64,000 nucleotides of DNA. It comes from Stigmatella ashevillena. GTDB taxonomy: Bacteria; Myxococcota; Myxococcia; Myxococcales; Myxococcaceae. The stretch is taken from contig NZ_JAQNDM010000002.1 in assembly GCF_028368975.1 (NCBI RefSeq), positions 3,466,425 to 3,530,424 on the forward strand. The letters are read 5' to 3'. The notes under the pieces are model-generated. The model worked only from the letters and a program-made list of their open reading frames with translations. It made no database searches and was not told the DNA's origin. Of the stretch, positions 12,365 through 18,136 are shown piece after piece. Both the position numbers and the translations under genes were made by a program. Within the stretch, counting starts at the first letter, position 1, and the number at the start of each line of letters is the position of its first letter.

Positions 12365-12963
12365 GCTCGCCCTCCCCTCCGTACGTGAGAGCAGCCGGTC
12401 CCAACGAGCGTGCTTCCTCGCCAAGTACCGGCTCTCCGTCCCCACCCGTCGCCACTCACCCGAGCCGTCCCTGCTCAACCCCCCGCCCGTCCATCCCCCC
12501 CAACATCATTCCCCCCGTACCGCGACTGCCTTTCCCCCCGACCAACCCCACTCCCCCCGACCGCCCCCCTGCCCCGCCCGTCCTGCTGACTGCCCCGTCC
12601 CGCCCGTCCCCGTCCTGCCCTGCCCCGTCCCGCCCGTCCTGCTGACTGCCCCGTCCCGCCCGTCCCCGTCCTGCCCTGCCCCGTCCCGCCCGTCCTGCTG
12701 ACTGCCCCGCCCTGCCCCGTCCCGCCCGCCCTGCCCCGTCCCGCCCACGCCTCTGTCCATAGCATTCGGCGTGCCGAGGCTTTCCAGCGCCGCTGTCCTG
12801 AGTTATTTCAAATGGTTACGCCTCATTTCCCCTGGAAAGGGGCGGGCCACGAATCCTGGCTCCGGAAAAATCTCCCGTGCCTCCATTCCCCTCTGGAAAA
12901 AAGAGGGGGGCCGCACCGGGCCAGAAAAGCGCCGGCCAACCTGGGCCGCGTTAGAACGAGGCC
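12365..12963. other. Gene-free 600-bp intergenic stretch with pyrimidine-rich tract
   Basis: No credible gene fits here; the open frames on both strands are low-complexity Pro/Ser or Gly/Arg shadows. The first 110 bases hold the ribosome site and presumably the promoter of the minus-strand gene. From about 12475 to 12760 the plus strand is almost pure C and T and contains the tandem repeat listed separately. From 12790 to 12963 composition returns towards normal, with runs of A (for example near 12866 and 12897), and probably carries the promoter of the next gene. Confidence 0.7.
12588..12755. repeat. 56-bp C-rich tandem repeat in a polypyrimidine tract
   Basis: A 56-base unit beginning gactgccccgtcccgcc and ending tcctgct is present as two exact consecutive copies (12588-12643 and 12644-12699). 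A degenerate third copy starts with the same gactgcccc at 12700 and decays by about 12755; a truncated piece of the unit's 3' end (gccccgcccgtcctgct) precedes the first copy at 12571. The unit is itself built from cccgtcc/cccgccc sub-repeats. Since 56 is not a multiple of three, it does not encode a repeat peptide. Confidence 0.85.
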
Positions 12964-13455: not shown

Positions 13456-14202
13456 CTACTTCGCCGGGGTCAACGTCACCTGCGTCTCTCCCAGCAGTTG
13501 GCCCCGCGCATCCGTGAAGCGTGCCCGTACCTCGATGGGCTTGGACAACCAGCCGCCCTGCACCGGCGTGCTGTAGGCCAGGGGCACATCCACGCCCGCC
13601 GACACCGGCACCGGCTCCCCCTCCTGCGGGAAGAACTGAAGCATTTCCCCCGAGGGCGCCCGGCTGGCCACCGACAACCGCGCCTGCTCCGGGGCCGTGT
13701 AGCTGAACTGCACCGCCGCCCCTTCGGGGCACGCCAGCACGCCTCCGGGCGAGGCCTCCCCGGCCACCTTTCCATCGGAGGCGATGCAGAACGCACGCAC
13801 CCCGAACGCCTTGCCCTCGGCGCCCTTGCGCGCCTGCCACCCTTCGTCGCCCTGTCCCCCTTGGCCCTTCGGGAGCACCACCACCGCCACCGCCGCCGCC
13901 GCCGCCGCCGCCATGGGCAACGCCACCTTCCACCAACTCCAGAAGGCAAAGCGCTCCGGCGCGGCGGCCCGCTGCGCGCCCTTCAACCGCTCCAGGAGCT
14001 GCGCCTCCAGCAGCCGCTCGCGGCCCTGGGGCAACACCCGCTTCTCCAAGGAGGACTCCACCCGCGAGAGCCGCTCATAGGCCGTGCCACACGAGACACA
14101 TGCCTTCGCATGCGCACGCAACCGCGCGTGTTCCCCTGCCTCCAACTCCCCCAGAAACAGCGCCTGAAGCGCCGTCTTCGCCTCCCCGTTCTCGCACGTC
14201 AT
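13456..14202 (-). CDS. Zinc-finger anti-sigma factor-like membrane protein
   Basis: A 248-residue protein with an N-terminal zinc-binding anti-sigma motif (HAKACVSC, residues 30-37, within the usual His-x3-Cys-x2-Cys pattern), one membrane helix rich in alanine (about residues 90-110, ALPMAAAAAAAVAVVVLP), and an extracytoplasmic C-terminal domain of about 135 residues. The layout matches ECF anti-sigma factors that hold a sigma factor at the membrane until an envelope signal arrives. It overlaps the sigma gene by four bases (ATGA), so the pair is translationally coupled. The sensory domain was not recognised. Confidence 0.82.
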   Translation of the reverse strand: MTCENGEAKTALQALFLGELEAGEHARLRAHAKACVSCGTAYERLSRVESSLEKRVLPQGRERLLEAQLLERLKGAQRAAAPERFAFWSWWKVALPMAAAAAAAVAVVVLPKGQGGQGDEGWQARKGAEGKAFGVRAFCIASDGKVAGEASPGGVLACPEGAAVQFSYTAPEQARLSVASRAPSGEMLQFFPQEGEPVPVSAGVDVPLAYSTPVQGGWLSKPIEVRARFTDARGQLLGETQVTLTPAK

Positions 14203-14864
14203 CCGTCGCCCCTTCTCTTCAAGAAGCCCCAGCCTTTCGCCCGGATACCCTGCAGGTACCCACGCTCCTGCAAAAACTCGAGCAGCCGCTGCTTGAGCCC
14301 TTTCTCCCGCCGGCGCACTTGGATGCGCGTCAGGCCCACCCGCTCCGCGGCGCTCTCCTGCGCCAGCCCTTCTGAAAAACGCAGCTCGAACAGCGCCCGC
14401 TCCTGCTCGGAGAGCCCTTGCTTGAAGTCACTCAGCAGCGCTTCCACCTCGCGGTCTTCCAGCAGCTGCTCCAGGTTCTCCGCCGTCCCCTCGGCGCCCG
14501 ACTCCCAGTCGAGCGCGCTGTCCTCATGCTGGGGGCCCAGCCCCGCCACCTCTTCCCGCGAGCGCATCTCCTCGAGCACCACATTGCGCGCGATGCCCAT
14601 GAGGAACTGCCCATAAGGACGCACCCCGTCGTAGGCCAGACGCGTCCGGGGTTCGAAGGCTCGGGCAAAAGTCTCCAGCACCGTGTTCTCCACCTCGAGG
14701 GCACTTCGAAGATGGGAGAATCCCCGCCCACGGAAGGCGGCTCCCCGGAGCATCCGGGCCAGCCACTCCGCATGTGCGCGGAATACATCCCCGAGCACGT
14801 CCGGTGCGCCCTCCCGGAAGCGCCGCAATCGCTCCTGGTCCCACTCCCACGCCATTCCCGCCAC
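14199..14864 (-). CDS. ECF-like RNA polymerase sigma factor
   Basis: A 221-residue sigma-70 family protein of ECF size. Region 2 is seen around residues 25-105 (FRAHAEWLARML ... GQFLMGIARNVVLEEMRSRE), and region 4 with its helix-turn-helix around 150-205 (LSEQERALFELRFSEGLAQESAA then RVGLTRIQVRRREKGL). It is co-expressed with an anti-sigma factor and points away from the caspase operon across a 133-bp divergent intergenic region, so that operon is a plausible target. I could not confidently identify its promoter motif. Confidence 0.85.
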   Translation of the reverse strand: MAGMAWEWDQERLRRFREGAPDVLGDVFRAHAEWLARMLRGAAFRGRGFSHLRSALEVENTVLETFARAFEPRTRLAYDGVRPYGQFLMGIARNVVLEEMRSREEVAGLGPQHEDSALDWESGAEGTAENLEQLLEDREVEALLSDFKQGLSEQERALFELRFSEGLAQESAAERVGLTRIQVRRREKGLKQRLLEFLQERGYLQGIRAKGWGFLKRRGDG

Positions 14865-14997
14865 ATACAGCGGCGTTCACCTGCCGTCACCTCTCCTTGT
14901 CAGAAGCCGGCCCGGCTGGATCGTTCACCCTCGACCATGGCACTCTGAGGCCCCTGAATCCTGCCGTGGGGGCGGCCGGCCCTCCTACATACGTGCC

Positions 14998-16278
14998 ATG
15001 CACTTTCCCTATCGCTTCCTTGCGTCCCGCTGCGCCTTGCTGCTGCTGGGATGGGGATTGGCCCTGCCAGGAGCCGCCTGGGCGGCCTCCCCTGGGAAGA
15101 CCACCTACGCCCTCATTGTCGCCAACAACGCCAGCCTGGACCCGAAGCAGGCGGCCTTGCGTTACGCGGACGATGATGGGGCGCGCTACTACGAGTTCTT
15201 CGCGCCCCAGGCCCAGGAGACCGTGCTGCTGAGCGTCCTGGACGAGGAGACGCAGGGGCGCCACCCGGGAGTGGCCTCGCGCGCCCGGCCTCCCACCCGG
15301 TCCGCCCTGTTGGAGGCCCTGCGGCAGCTCAACACCCGCATGGCCGCCGACAAGGCCGCTGGGCTCACCCCGGTGCTCTATTTCATCTTCACCGGCCACG
15401 GGCAGCGCGGGGCCGCCGGAGAGGGCTCGGTGAACCTGCTGGACGGCCCGTTCAGCCGCACGGACCTCTACAAGCACGTCATCGCCCCCAGCACCGCAGG
15501 CTTCCTCCACCTCATCGTGGATGCGTGCGACTCATACTTCTTCGTCAACTCGCGAGGGACGCTGCCGGTGGGGCCGGCCCTGGGGGCAACGGTGACCCAG
15601 CACCTGGCCTCGCGCGAGTTGGAGCGCTACCCCCATGTCGGCGTGGTGTTGTCCACCTCCAAGGCCCAGGAGAGCCACGAGTGGAGCGCCATCTCCTCGG
15701 GCGTCTTCAGCCACCAGGTGCGCTCGGCCCTGGCGGGCGCGGCGGACGTGAACGCCGACGGGCGCGTGGAGTACTCGGAGCTGATGGCCTTCATCGCCTC
15801 CGCCAGCCAGGGCGTGGAGGACGTGCGGGGCCGGCTGGACATCTTCGCGCGGCCGCCCCTGCTAGACCGCAGCGCCCCCTTGAGCGATCTCGCCCAGAAG
15901 TCGGGCCTGGGCTACCTCCTGATCCCGGAGGGGGTGGGCGGCAGGATGTGGGTGGAGGACACGCGGGGTGTCCGCCTGGCCGAGTTCCACAAGGAGCGCG
16001 AGCGCGCGCTGGTGCTCGGCCTGCCCGTGGGCCGGGGCTACTACCTGCGAATCCCGGGACAGGAGGCCCGCTTCACCCTCCAGCGGGGGCGCGAGGTGGT
16101 GGACGCGGGGGCCCTCACCTGGACGGCCCTGTCGGTCGCCAGCCGCGGCGCCCTGGAGGATGCCTTCCGGGACCACCTCTTCGGCGTGGCGTTCGGGCCG
16201 CGCTTCTACAGCGGCTACGTGGCGAGCGCCGGCATGGCGCCCGTGCCCCTCTATCCAGGCCCCGACCTCTCCCCATGA
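14998..16278 (+). CDS. Secreted caspase-like peptidase (family C14)
   Basis: A 426-residue protein with a signal peptide (about residues 1-30, cleaved after AAWA) followed by a caspase fold. The catalytic dyad is visible: His134 in FIFTGHGQRG and Cys177 in LIVDACDS. Residues 250-261 (DVNADGRVEYSE) fit a canonical EF-hand calcium loop, a feature shared with many bacterial caspase homologues. The C-terminal 150 residues are an unrecognised domain. The ATG at 14998 was chosen because it begins the signal peptide; the upstream in-frame reading overlaps the sigma gene. It is the first gene of a three-gene coupled operon. Confidence 0.85.
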   Translation: MHFPYRFLASRCALLLLGWGLALPGAAWAASPGKTTYALIVANNASLDPKQAALRYADDDGARYYEFFAPQAQETVLLSVLDEETQGRHPGVASRARPPTRSALLEALRQLNTRMAADKAAGLTPVLYFIFTGHGQRGAAGEGSVNLLDGPFSRTDLYKHVIAPSTAGFLHLIVDACDSYFFVNSRGTLPVGPALGATVTQHLASRELERYPHVGVVLSTSKAQESHEWSAISSGVFSHQVRSALAGAADVNADGRVEYSELMAFIASASQGVEDVRGRLDIFARPPLLDRSAPLSDLAQKSGLGYLLIPEGVGGRMWVEDTRGVRLAEFHKERERALVLGLPVGRGYYLRIPGQEARFTLQRGREVVDAGALTWTALSVASRGALEDAFRDHLFGVAFGPRFYSGYVASAGMAPVPLYPGPDLSP

Positions 16279-17033
16279 TGGTCCTCTCAATCGCGCTGCT
16301 GCTGACGCTGGGCAACCAGCCCCCGAAGGTGCCCTGCCAGGGCGAACGCCTGGCGCTCGTTCCCTTCGACACCCTGGCCGTGGCGCGCCCCGAGGCCCGG
16401 CGCATGGAAGATGCGGTCCGGCGCGCGGTGGCCCGGACCGCGAACACGTGCCTGGACCCGCGCCAGCAGACGGTGGAGGAGCTTCAGGCCCGGGGGGGAC
16501 AATTGGCCCCGTGCCTGGACGCAGCCTGCCGCACCACCCAGGTGAAGAACTTTGGCGCGCAGTGGCTGGTACGAGGGCGGGTGCTGGGGCTCGGCGGCGA
16601 GCGCACGGTGGCGCTGGTGCTCGTGGGGCCCGATGGACAGGAGCGCCGCAGTGCCTTCACGCTGCCCAAGGAGGAAGCGGGCACCGAGAATGCCGCAGCG
16701 CAGGCCTTCGCCTCCCTGTGGGAGGGACGGCTCCCCCCTGCCGCACAGCGGGTGGAGAAGCAGCGGCGAGGGCCCTGGCCCAAGGTGCTCATGGGCGCGG
16801 GGGCGGTGGCGCTGGCGGCGGGGGTAGGTTTTGGCCTGGCGGCACGTTCCACGGAGAACCGTCTCTCCGAGGGCAACGGAGGCTGCACGGGCGAGGGAGA
16901 GGCCCTGCGAGACTGCTTCGCGGATGGGCTGAGCAAGGGCAAGAAGCAGAGCCGCGTCGCCAACGGCTTGCTCGGCGCAGGGGCACTGTTGGGGGCGGGG
17001 GGCGCCCTCTTCTTCGTTTGGGAGCTGCCATGA
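16275..17033 (+). CDS. Membrane protein of unknown function in the caspase operon
   Basis: A 252-residue protein starting at ATGATG, overlapping the caspase stop. It has a short N-terminal hydrophobic leader, a central domain (about residues 20-150) opening with ERLALVPFDTLAVARPEA, and two C-terminal hydrophobic segments (about 172-190 and 228-250). The central part resembles proteins that define a periplasmic alpha/beta domain similar to TolB-N or curli-type lipoproteins only loosely, so no family is assigned. Position and translational coupling suggest it anchors or controls the secreted caspase. Confidence 0.72.
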   Translation: MMVLSIALLLTLGNQPPKVPCQGERLALVPFDTLAVARPEARRMEDAVRRAVARTANTCLDPRQQTVEELQARGGQLAPCLDAACRTTQVKNFGAQWLVRGRVLGLGGERTVALVLVGPDGQERRSAFTLPKEEAGTENAAAQAFASLWEGRLPPAAQRVEKQRRGPWPKVLMGAGAVALAAGVGFGLAARSTENRLSEGNGGCTGEGEALRDCFADGLSKGKKQSRVANGLLGAGALLGAGGALFFVWELP

Positions 17034-18136
17034 ACGCACGCTGGAGATTCCAGGGGTTGCTGCTGCTCTGCGGGTTGGGAGGCATGGCCTGCCTCTTTGA
17101 TCCCAACTTCGCCCGCTTCGAGAAGTGCGGCGCCAACAACACCTGCAACAGTGGCTACTCCTGCTTTCAGGAAGAGGGGGTCTGCCTGCCGGACTGTGGT
17201 TTCCAGGACCGCTGTCCTGGTGACGAGCCGCCTCCCAACGTACCGCCGGACGCGGGGCAGAACGAGGACGGAGGCACCGACGCGGGCACCGACGCGGGAG
17301 TGGATGGAGGCACCGATGCAGGCCCCCCCACGGTGAAGCCCTTGATTTGGATCACCCGGACCCTGCCCTTGGCCACCGAGGAAGTGCCCTACGCCCAACG
17401 GCTGTATGTGGAAGGAGGCACCCCTCCCTACTCCTTCACGGCCGTGGGCTCCTTGCCCAGGAACTTCGGCATCAGCGGAGCCTTCCTCCAAGGCAACCCC
17501 GCGGACGTGGGGTCCTCCGGCGTCGCGATCCGGGTCACCGACTCGGCCACCCCTCCCTCAAGCACGCAGGAGGAGTTCACCCTGGAGGTGCGTCCCCTGC
17601 TCCGGCTGGCCGGGCCCGGAGTCCTCGCGCATGGCTACACCAGCACGGCCTACACGGAGCGCATCTCCGCCACGGGAGGCACGCCTCCTTATAAGTTCAC
17701 GATGGACCAGGGCAGCGTCCTCCCCCCGAATCTCTCCCTCGGGTCCGATGGAACCCTCACGGGCACCCCTACCGCCGCCACAGGGCAGAAGTCCTACTGG
17801 GTGCGGGTCACCGACTCGGGAACGCCTCCGCAGACAGTGCCCCGGAACCTGTTGCTCGAACTCAAGCTCCAGCAGATTCTGACGGCGGAGATAGCCAACC
17901 AGTCCGTCCCGGACGGCCGGGTCGGAACGGAGTACAACTACACCTTCAAGATCTCGAATGGCGTCACGCCGACTTGGACCCTGAAGAATAATGGCCCCCT
18001 TCCCGCGGGCATGACGTTCGATGCGGCGACGGCCACCCTCAAAGGCACCCCGAGCCAGAAGACCACCGTGACGTTCACCATCGTCGCGTCAGGGCTCCTG
18101 TCCCTCGACAAGAGCTTCACGGTGACGATCCACTGA
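17030..18136 (+). CDS. Putative-Ig-domain lipoprotein in the caspase operon
   Basis: A 368-residue surface lipoprotein. The lipobox LGGMAC (Cys21) follows a signal peptide; the next 50 residues are Cys-rich (CGANNTCNSGYSCF and CLPDCGFQDRC), then a low-complexity DAGTDAG-type linker (about 75-100). Three putative-Ig (He_PIG-like) repeats follow, each with the GGTPPYSF/LPxGMTF/LxGTP pattern. Such modules usually mediate binding at the cell surface. It overlaps the preceding gene by four bases and ends the operon. Confidence 0.82.
   Translation: MNARWRFQGLLLLCGLGGMACLFDPNFARFEKCGANNTCNSGYSCFQEEGVCLPDCGFQDRCPGDEPPPNVPPDAGQNEDGGTDAGTDAGVDGGTDAGPPTVKPLIWITRTLPLATEEVPYAQRLYVEGGTPPYSFTAVGSLPRNFGISGAFLQGNPADVGSSGVAIRVTDSATPPSSTQEEFTLEVRPLLRLAGPGVLAHGYTSTAYTERISATGGTPPYKFTMDQGSVLPPNLSLGSDGTLTGTPTAATGQKSYWVRVTDSGTPPQTVPRNLLLELKLQQILTAEIANQSVPDGRVGTEYNYTFKISNGVTPTWTLKNNGPLPAGMTFDAATATLKGTPSQKTTVTFTIVASGLLSLDKSFTVTIH

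Follow-up and report, generated by a model that had tools for sequence, protein, structure and literature searches.

Why should an exported caspase-like protease be encoded back to back with a sigma factor and its anti-sigma factor? The question is raised by a five-gene module at positions 13456-18136 of a 64,000-nucleotide stretch of the Stigmatella ashevillena genome, here called the window (assembly GCF_028368975.1, contig NZ_JAQNDM010000002.1, positions 3,466,425 to 3,530,424, forward strand). The genes of an extracytoplasmic function (ECF) sigma factor (SIGMA) and a zinc-finger anti-sigma factor (ANTIS) lie opposite those of a caspase-fold protein (CASP), a membrane protein (MEMB) and an Ig-repeat lipoprotein (LIPO). 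The answer put forward here, tentatively and with rather less than an even chance, is that the module serves envelope signalling. The periplasmic caspase would control the partner sigma factor by cutting its own anti-sigma factor as a site-1 protease.

The conserved sigma, anti-sigma and caspase unit

The ANTIS (13456..14202) and SIGMA (14199..14864) genes are on the minus strand, and the CASP (14998..16278), MEMB (16275..17033) and LIPO (17030..18136) genes on the plus strand. The divergent SIGMA and CASP starts are separated by 133 bp, and CASP, MEMB and LIPO overlap by 4 bp at each junction; the coordinates confirm the arrangement given in the original prediction, which had been made from the window alone.

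The genomes scanned numbered 59, that of S. ashevillena included, and the best locus was mapped in 20 others. Named genomes were scanned as well, and of the 217 relatives obtained the best 80 were retained; the record titles of these loci give Myxococcota groups or unresolved Deltaproteobacteria, Proteobacteria or bacterium metagenome-assembled genomes (MAGs). The sample is biased to relatives of the window caspase, not other bacterial caspases. The two sets of loci overlap (for example, L038/L075, L041/L076, L047/L089, L048/L093, L049/L094 and L053/L126 are apparently the same contigs), and their counts are not additive.

A caspase match was found in 51 of the 59 genomes. All five genes were present in 15 of the 20 mapped loci (L035-L049), 14 of which are divergent and one of which (L048) is a single codirectional run; the MEMB match in L049 was weaker (E 4e-11). 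The five-gene locus is carried by all six genomes of the same genus and was found in 20 of the best 80 named loci (L075-L094). The original prediction had treated the five genes as one system, and with these counts the module is real and conserved, and broader than was apparent at that time. In Archangium L078 and L079, which keep all five genes, an insertion in the divergent region places about 5.1 and 3.4 kb, respectively, between sigma and caspase.

A sigma gene was present in 72 of the 80 named loci, and both sigma and anti-sigma genes in 70. In seven of the eight named loci without sigma, the caspase lies 0.4-1.1 kb from a contig end; L135 lacks sigma and anti-sigma despite full flanks. 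No anti-sigma match was found at the L147 and L150 loci. In most loci outside the clade of the window, sigma, anti-sigma and caspase are codirectional, and in 74 codirectional loci the median gaps, measured from script-chosen starts, were 1 bp between sigma and anti-sigma and 5 bp between anti-sigma and caspase. The core unit is sigma, anti-sigma and caspase, usually in one tight operon, across Myxococcota. Since most loci elsewhere are codirectional, the divergent layout of the window looks like a derived, split form of this operon. The link between sigma and caspase was kept through rearrangement, in divergent and codirectional orders.

For four of the five caspase-like genes of S. ashevillena itself, an ECF sigma gene lies no more than about 2 kb away. 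As the genome has 52 sigma matches in 10.95 Mb, this proximity is not due to chance. Furthermore, the protein distances among sigma, anti-sigma and caspase correlate (r 0.89-0.92, n=87, permutation 0.001), which indicates co-inheritance and not contact, because the shared ancestry of whole operons explains the correlation too. A regulatory link between sigma factor and caspase is supported by the gene linkage. A single open frame in L143 (L143:4-2226) runs from the end of the anti-sigma factor through the caspase signal peptide into the caspase; it is either a true gene fusion or the result of a stop codon lost in a MAG contig.

Protein features and candidate cleavage sites

The SIGMA protein (221 aa) matched the ECF family TIGR02937 with 49.1 bits, above the cut-off of 42.9, and PDB sigma structures by profile with a best E of 7.6e-12. 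It has regions 2 and 4 only, with Sigma70_r4 matched at E 4.6e-7 and region 2 weakly at E 0.044. The sigma factors of L056, L061 and L064 end, by alignment, in a hydrophobic stretch resembling a membrane helix and may themselves be membrane-tethered.

ANTIS matched zf-HC2 at E 4.7e-4, just under the cut-off, and its HxxxCxxC residues H31, C35 and C38 were the same in all 17 aligned sequences. With this motif, a transmembrane (TM) helix and an extracytoplasmic domain, it has the features of a class I zinc-finger anti-sigma factor. The TM segment, residues 93-111 (13870..13926, minus strand), was predicted from a hydropathy window. Its helix contains a poly-Ala run that is encoded by about 10 tandem CCG units (13884-13912) and varies in length among close relatives. 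In the AlphaFold2 (AF2) model, periplasmic linker residues 113-124 have a predicted local confidence score (pLDDT) below 50 and are predicted to be disordered. Residues 134-246 (13465..13803, minus strand) are modelled as a beta-sandwich domain with pLDDT of 94-98. A profile of this periplasmic domain (A7) found 25 matches across 14 genomes, all 25 of them adjoined by a caspase and a sigma gene; the domain occurs only beside caspases. Foldseek related it weakly to PDE6D/RhoGDI/NPC2-type sandwiches (E about 2e-4, query TM-score about 0.2-0.3), and no function was drawn from these weak matches.

The AF2 model of the 426-residue CASP (pLDDT 88, predicted TM-score 0.88) matched MALT1 (E 5e-7) and metacaspase 9 (E 3.4e-6) in Foldseek, and legumain (Z 17.9) and metacaspase 4 (Z 17.4; rmsd 3.1, 219 aligned) with VIA-align. 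The modelled fold is the caspase-like alpha/beta fold of Peptidase C14, and a beta-rich C-terminal domain is also present. A CASP profile compared with the PDB by sequence listed EF-hand proteins and engineered repeats, and no caspase. Pfam Peptidase_C14 (PF00656) was matched by 8 of 19 family members at E 0.1, the best at 7.7e-9.

The His-Cys dyad, H134 (codon 15397-15399) and C177 (codon 15526-15528), was invariant in 40/40 sequences of the whole-genome loci and in 62/62 sequences of the set made up of the window and the named loci. In the EF-hand-type loop (15745-15780, plus strand), D250 and E261 were invariant in both sets, and D254 in 40/40 and in at least 90% of the 62. The caspase fold, the catalytic pair and the loop had all been part of the original prediction and were borne out by the model, the structure matches and the invariant residues. 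Because the catalytic His and Cys are invariant in 62/62, the catalytic activity of the family appears to be under selection. A signal peptide was read by eye at the N-terminus, and CASP is read as exported, as had been predicted. The caspase and the anti-sigma domain would, to judge from the sequences, share one compartment.

A conserved hydrophobic-x-x-Arg-Gly/Ser motif lies ahead of the ANTIS periplasmic domain. Its form in the window is W122-Q-A-R125-K126 (13825..13839, minus strand), in or beside the low-confidence linker. The motif was scored in the 35 juxtamembrane residues of anti-sigma factors. Before filtering, 100 anti-sigma factors were listed, 72 of which show the zinc-finger pattern within their first 70 residues. 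Truncated or mis-started frames were excluded, as were sequences lacking that pattern; 80 zinc-finger anti-sigma factors with a clear TM segment were kept, and 38 remained after thinning at 50% identity. The control set was 12 non-caspase zinc-finger anti-sigma factors from the neighbourhood of 40 other sigma genes in this genome. The pattern [WFL]xx[RK][GSK] was present in 31 of the 38 non-redundant sequences (shuffles mean 3.4, maximum 9) and in 1 of the 12 controls. The looser [FWLVIY]xx[RK][GSKA] was present in 36 of 38 (shuffles 9.7, maximum 17).

Past the catalytic Cys, the caspase family carries V183-x-x-R186-G187 (15544..15558, plus strand), with V183 in 61, R186 in 62 and G187 in 60 of the 62 sequences. 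The site is at the edge of a low-confidence stretch (residues 181-190, mean pLDDT 68). Non-animal C14 proteases that have been characterised favour Arg/Lys at P1 (PMC5756287), and for this reason R125 of ANTIS and R186 of CASP are candidate cut sites, the latter for self-processing. The linker motif resembles a cutting site for CASP, which may therefore act on the sigma switch.

MEMB has an N-domain followed by a C-terminal hairpin of two TM segments, as seen by hydropathy, and its profile had no other good match in the genome of the window (next E 0.002). LIPO has a lipobox, read by eye, a Cys-rich N-part, a GTDAG linker and three He_PIG Ig-like domains (E 5.3e-19). It is kept in the five-gene clade and evolves fast, the identities to L036 being 92% for sigma, 88% for caspase and 54% for the lipoprotein.

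The window CASP chain is without a C-terminal TM segment by hydropathy. The anchoring survey covered 108 distinct complete caspases, 74 of them long (440 aa or more) and 34 short. The long caspases had at least two C-terminal TM segments in 30 cases, one in 17 and none in 27; some of those with none have outer-membrane-barrel-like tails (L137, OMP_b-brl E 1.6e-4, below cut-off). A separate MEMB gene was found with 0/74 long caspases and with 31/34 short ones (30 flagged by script, and L045 on inspection). At the short caspases L050 and L051, a different membrane-hairpin gene downstream replaces MEMB; its product has a different N-terminal part, TPR-like by eye. No membrane partner was found in the locus survey for the short caspase L102. 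L107 combines in a single chain the caspase, a MEMB-like N-domain (E 2.5e-7), PEGA (6.4e-8) and C-terminal TM segments. The N-domain region of L107 also gave a weak Pfam TolB_N trace (E 0.029), and MEMB-like traces were seen in L115 (5.8e-5) and L120 (hairpin, 5.8e-7).

The long fused and short split caspases were read as variants of a single envelope-anchored enzyme. With the caspase of relatives fused to TM anchors or paired with MEMB, an envelope-anchored signalling protein is favoured over a released weapon. The original prediction was of an exported module acting in the periplasm or outside the cell, perhaps in prey killing. Export stands; the released weapon for prey is weakened, since 30 of the 74 long relatives are TM-anchored in cis, L107 is a fusion and the short ones mostly come with a membrane-hairpin gene.

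The proposed cascade and its alternatives

Every catalytic, proteolytic and regulatory step of the proposed cascade, the site-1 cut included, is one that we infer; observed are the gene linkage, co-divergence, domain exclusivity, linker motif, invariant Arg and conserved promoter-like element. The zinc-finger anti-sigma factor would keep the sigma factor at the inner membrane, and the exported caspase would stay in the envelope through a membrane partner, which is MEMB in the window and a fused C-terminal anchor in relatives. A signal, perhaps calcium via the EF-hand-type loop or an input from MEMB or LIPO, would activate the caspase, possibly following a self-cut at R186-G187. The active caspase would make the site-1 cut in the anti-sigma factor after R125, within its disordered linker in the periplasm. 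Breakdown of the anti-sigma factor would then be completed by site-2 (M50) and cytoplasmic proteases, and the freed sigma factor would transcribe the caspase, MEMB and LIPO genes in a positive feedback. The genome has seven PF02163 matches to M50 site-2-type proteases, over the cut-off alone or with in-frame neighbours. In its full form, the proposal is that an exported, envelope-anchored caspase is a self-processing, Arg-specific and perhaps calcium-gated site-1 protease of its own anti-sigma factor, in a cascade spread across Myxococcota. This too is offered as a possibility somewhat short of an even chance.

An ECF promoter-like two-box element, GGATCG-N14-TGGCA (14918..14942, plus strand), points toward the caspase in the window. 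Of 29 distinct divergent regions, 26 have GGATYG in this orientation and 4 in the reverse one (shuffles mean 2.3, maximum 7). Because the divergent-region sequences are related, this count is read as a footprint and not as independent evidence. Look-alikes of the element in L048, L050, L052 and L056 were seen by eye and were not counted.

Several observations weigh against the cascade. Upstream of codirectional operons GGATYG was not enriched (11/69 forward vs 13/69 reverse), and no such element was seen on the sigma side. A search for a GGATYG-N14-TGGCA regulon in 8 genomes gave 3 to 11 unspecific matches in each, and the genome counts of the element are, by a rough estimate, near the base-composition expectation. 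Cleavage of the anti-sigma factor by the caspase is proposed from a candidate site, and the linker motif may be a structural or binding feature. Since the caspase-linked domain is found nowhere else, the motif is inseparable from it. The loose motif was also present in 4 of the 12 controls. The strict form [WF]x[AP]R[GS] was present in only 14 of 38 sequences (shuffles 0.3, maximum 3; controls 0/12), and WQARK of the window does not fit it. Among the 36 non-redundant anti-sigma factors that fit the loose form, 6 have Lys at the position of Arg. R186-G187 of CASP may likewise be structural, and the window CASP had no match to PF00656 at E 1. Additionally, MEMB has positive charges ahead of its first TM segment, on the side expected to be periplasmic, which fits poorly with the topology assumed for it.

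That the sigma factor acts on the caspase promoter, as the original prediction had it, is suggested by the conserved two-box element; the unspecific genome-wide matches and the lack of codirectional enrichment speak on the other side. One GGATYG-N14-TGGCA site (G000:C2:5415979-5416003, L164) recurred unchanged in three genomes, but within a coding frame that apparently encodes a repeat-containing surface protein. As the matches were unspecific and the only site identical in three genomes is inside a coding frame, no regulon is claimed.

The main rival to caspase-driven release of the sigma factor is that the caspase is the output. Envelope stress would free the sigma factor via ordinary DegS/RseP-like proteolysis, the sigma factor would raise the caspase operon, and the protease would then act on envelope or neighbour-cell proteins in developmental lysis, competition or predation. 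This explanation is a serious one, if on the doubtful side. It is consistent with the promoter-like element that points to the caspase and with a fast-evolving, surface-type lipoprotein in the operon, and autolysis or fratricide was suggested by the authors of a 2012 paper (PMC3501461). However, it leaves unexplained why the periplasmic domain of the anti-sigma factor is found only beside caspases, why caspase, sigma and anti-sigma share one operon across the group, and what the Arg-Gly linker motif is for. Moreover, the membrane anchors in relatives speak against release.

The possibility was also considered that control is allosteric and free of cleavage, the anti-sigma domain binding the caspase or reading its product so that the state of the caspase gates the sigma factor. 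This would account for the domain exclusivity and the co-divergence. In addition, ANTIS has a DUF4384-like trace (E 0.15); orthocaspases of cyanobacteria carry DUF4384 as an accessory domain (PMC7475262). The invariance of the catalytic His and Cys and a linker motif that suits a cleavage site argue against it, and allosteric control is judged unlikely. No support was found for an accidental proximity of the sigma pair to the caspase operon; myxobacterial genomes are rich in both. Linkage in 72 of 80 named loci and at four of five caspases of this genome, in several gene orders, refutes this reading as far as comparative genomics reaches, and it is given next to no probability.

Relation to known systems

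Site-1 cleavage by the caspase would parallel RseA/DegS/RseP, which likewise has a membrane anti-sigma factor with a periplasmic domain, an ECF sigma factor and, presumably, successive site-1 and site-2 cuts. DegS is a PDZ serine protease, whereas the site-1 protease proposed here is a cysteine enzyme of caspase fold encoded beside the sigma pair.

In 2012, four of the five metacaspase operons of M. xanthus were reported to contain sigma factors (Asplund-Samuelsson et al., PMC3501461). The same paper gives operons of a caspase homologue and a sigma-70-type factor in Myxococcus, Anaeromyxobacter, Haliangium, Sorangium, Ralstonia and Fibrobacter (PMC3501461). The anti-sigma factor, membrane partner, linker motif, mechanism and divergent five-gene layout are not discussed in the accessible part of it. 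The module had originally been put forward as a candidate for an undescribed system; its sigma/metacaspase linkage is not new. Neither the exclusivity of the anti-sigma domain to caspases nor the conserved linker motif was found in print in the literature searched, most subscription papers being outside its reach. Within the same literature, no paper was found in which an exported caspase cuts a membrane anti-sigma factor.

The release of an ECF sigma factor by a caspase-like protease has a precedent in the type III-E CRISPR system Csx29/Csx30/CASP-sigma, in which a caspase-clan protease cuts an ECF sigma inhibitor (PMC10028731). Csx29 differs in being an RNA-triggered CHAT-type protease on a Cas effector, and its inhibitor, as described in the available text, is no membrane zinc-finger anti-sigma factor (PMC10028731). 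No CRISPR part was seen in the window module. In ECF54, too, an ECF sigma factor lies near caspase-related (CHAT) proteases and proteolytic control has been proposed (PMC8999054); the window module differs in the zinc-finger anti-sigma factor that adjoins its sigma factor. Loci of caspase/EACC2 with ECF sigma factors are also known (PMC8195603). Caspase-clan proteases and ECF sigma factors thus meet repeatedly, and, as far as the accessible parts of these papers go, experimental support is given for Csx29-Csx30-CASP-sigma only (PMC10028731). Orthocaspases and metacaspases such as MaOC1 share with CASP the C14 fold, the His-Cys dyad and the expected basic P1 preference (PMC7935541, PMC5756287). 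CASP differs from them in its predicted export, its EF-hand-type loop, its beta-rich C-terminal domain and its tie to an anti-sigma factor.

The function of bacterial caspases is largely open, and the myxobacterial ones are discussed mainly as possible death enzymes. If the proposed cascade is true, many myxobacterial caspases would be envelope signal proteases whose substrate is defined, whose cut site is predicted and whose operon includes a transcriptional read-out. A caspase-family enzyme would also join the site-1 proteases of anti-sigma factors, in parallel to the CRISPR CASP-sigma system. None of the five proteins matched PADLOC defence proteins at E 0.01, and an anti-phage defence system was rejected on this basis. 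Upstream of the module, between two genes, lies a GC-rich tandem array (12573-12751) with a 56-bp unit in 3.1 copies and 95% matches.

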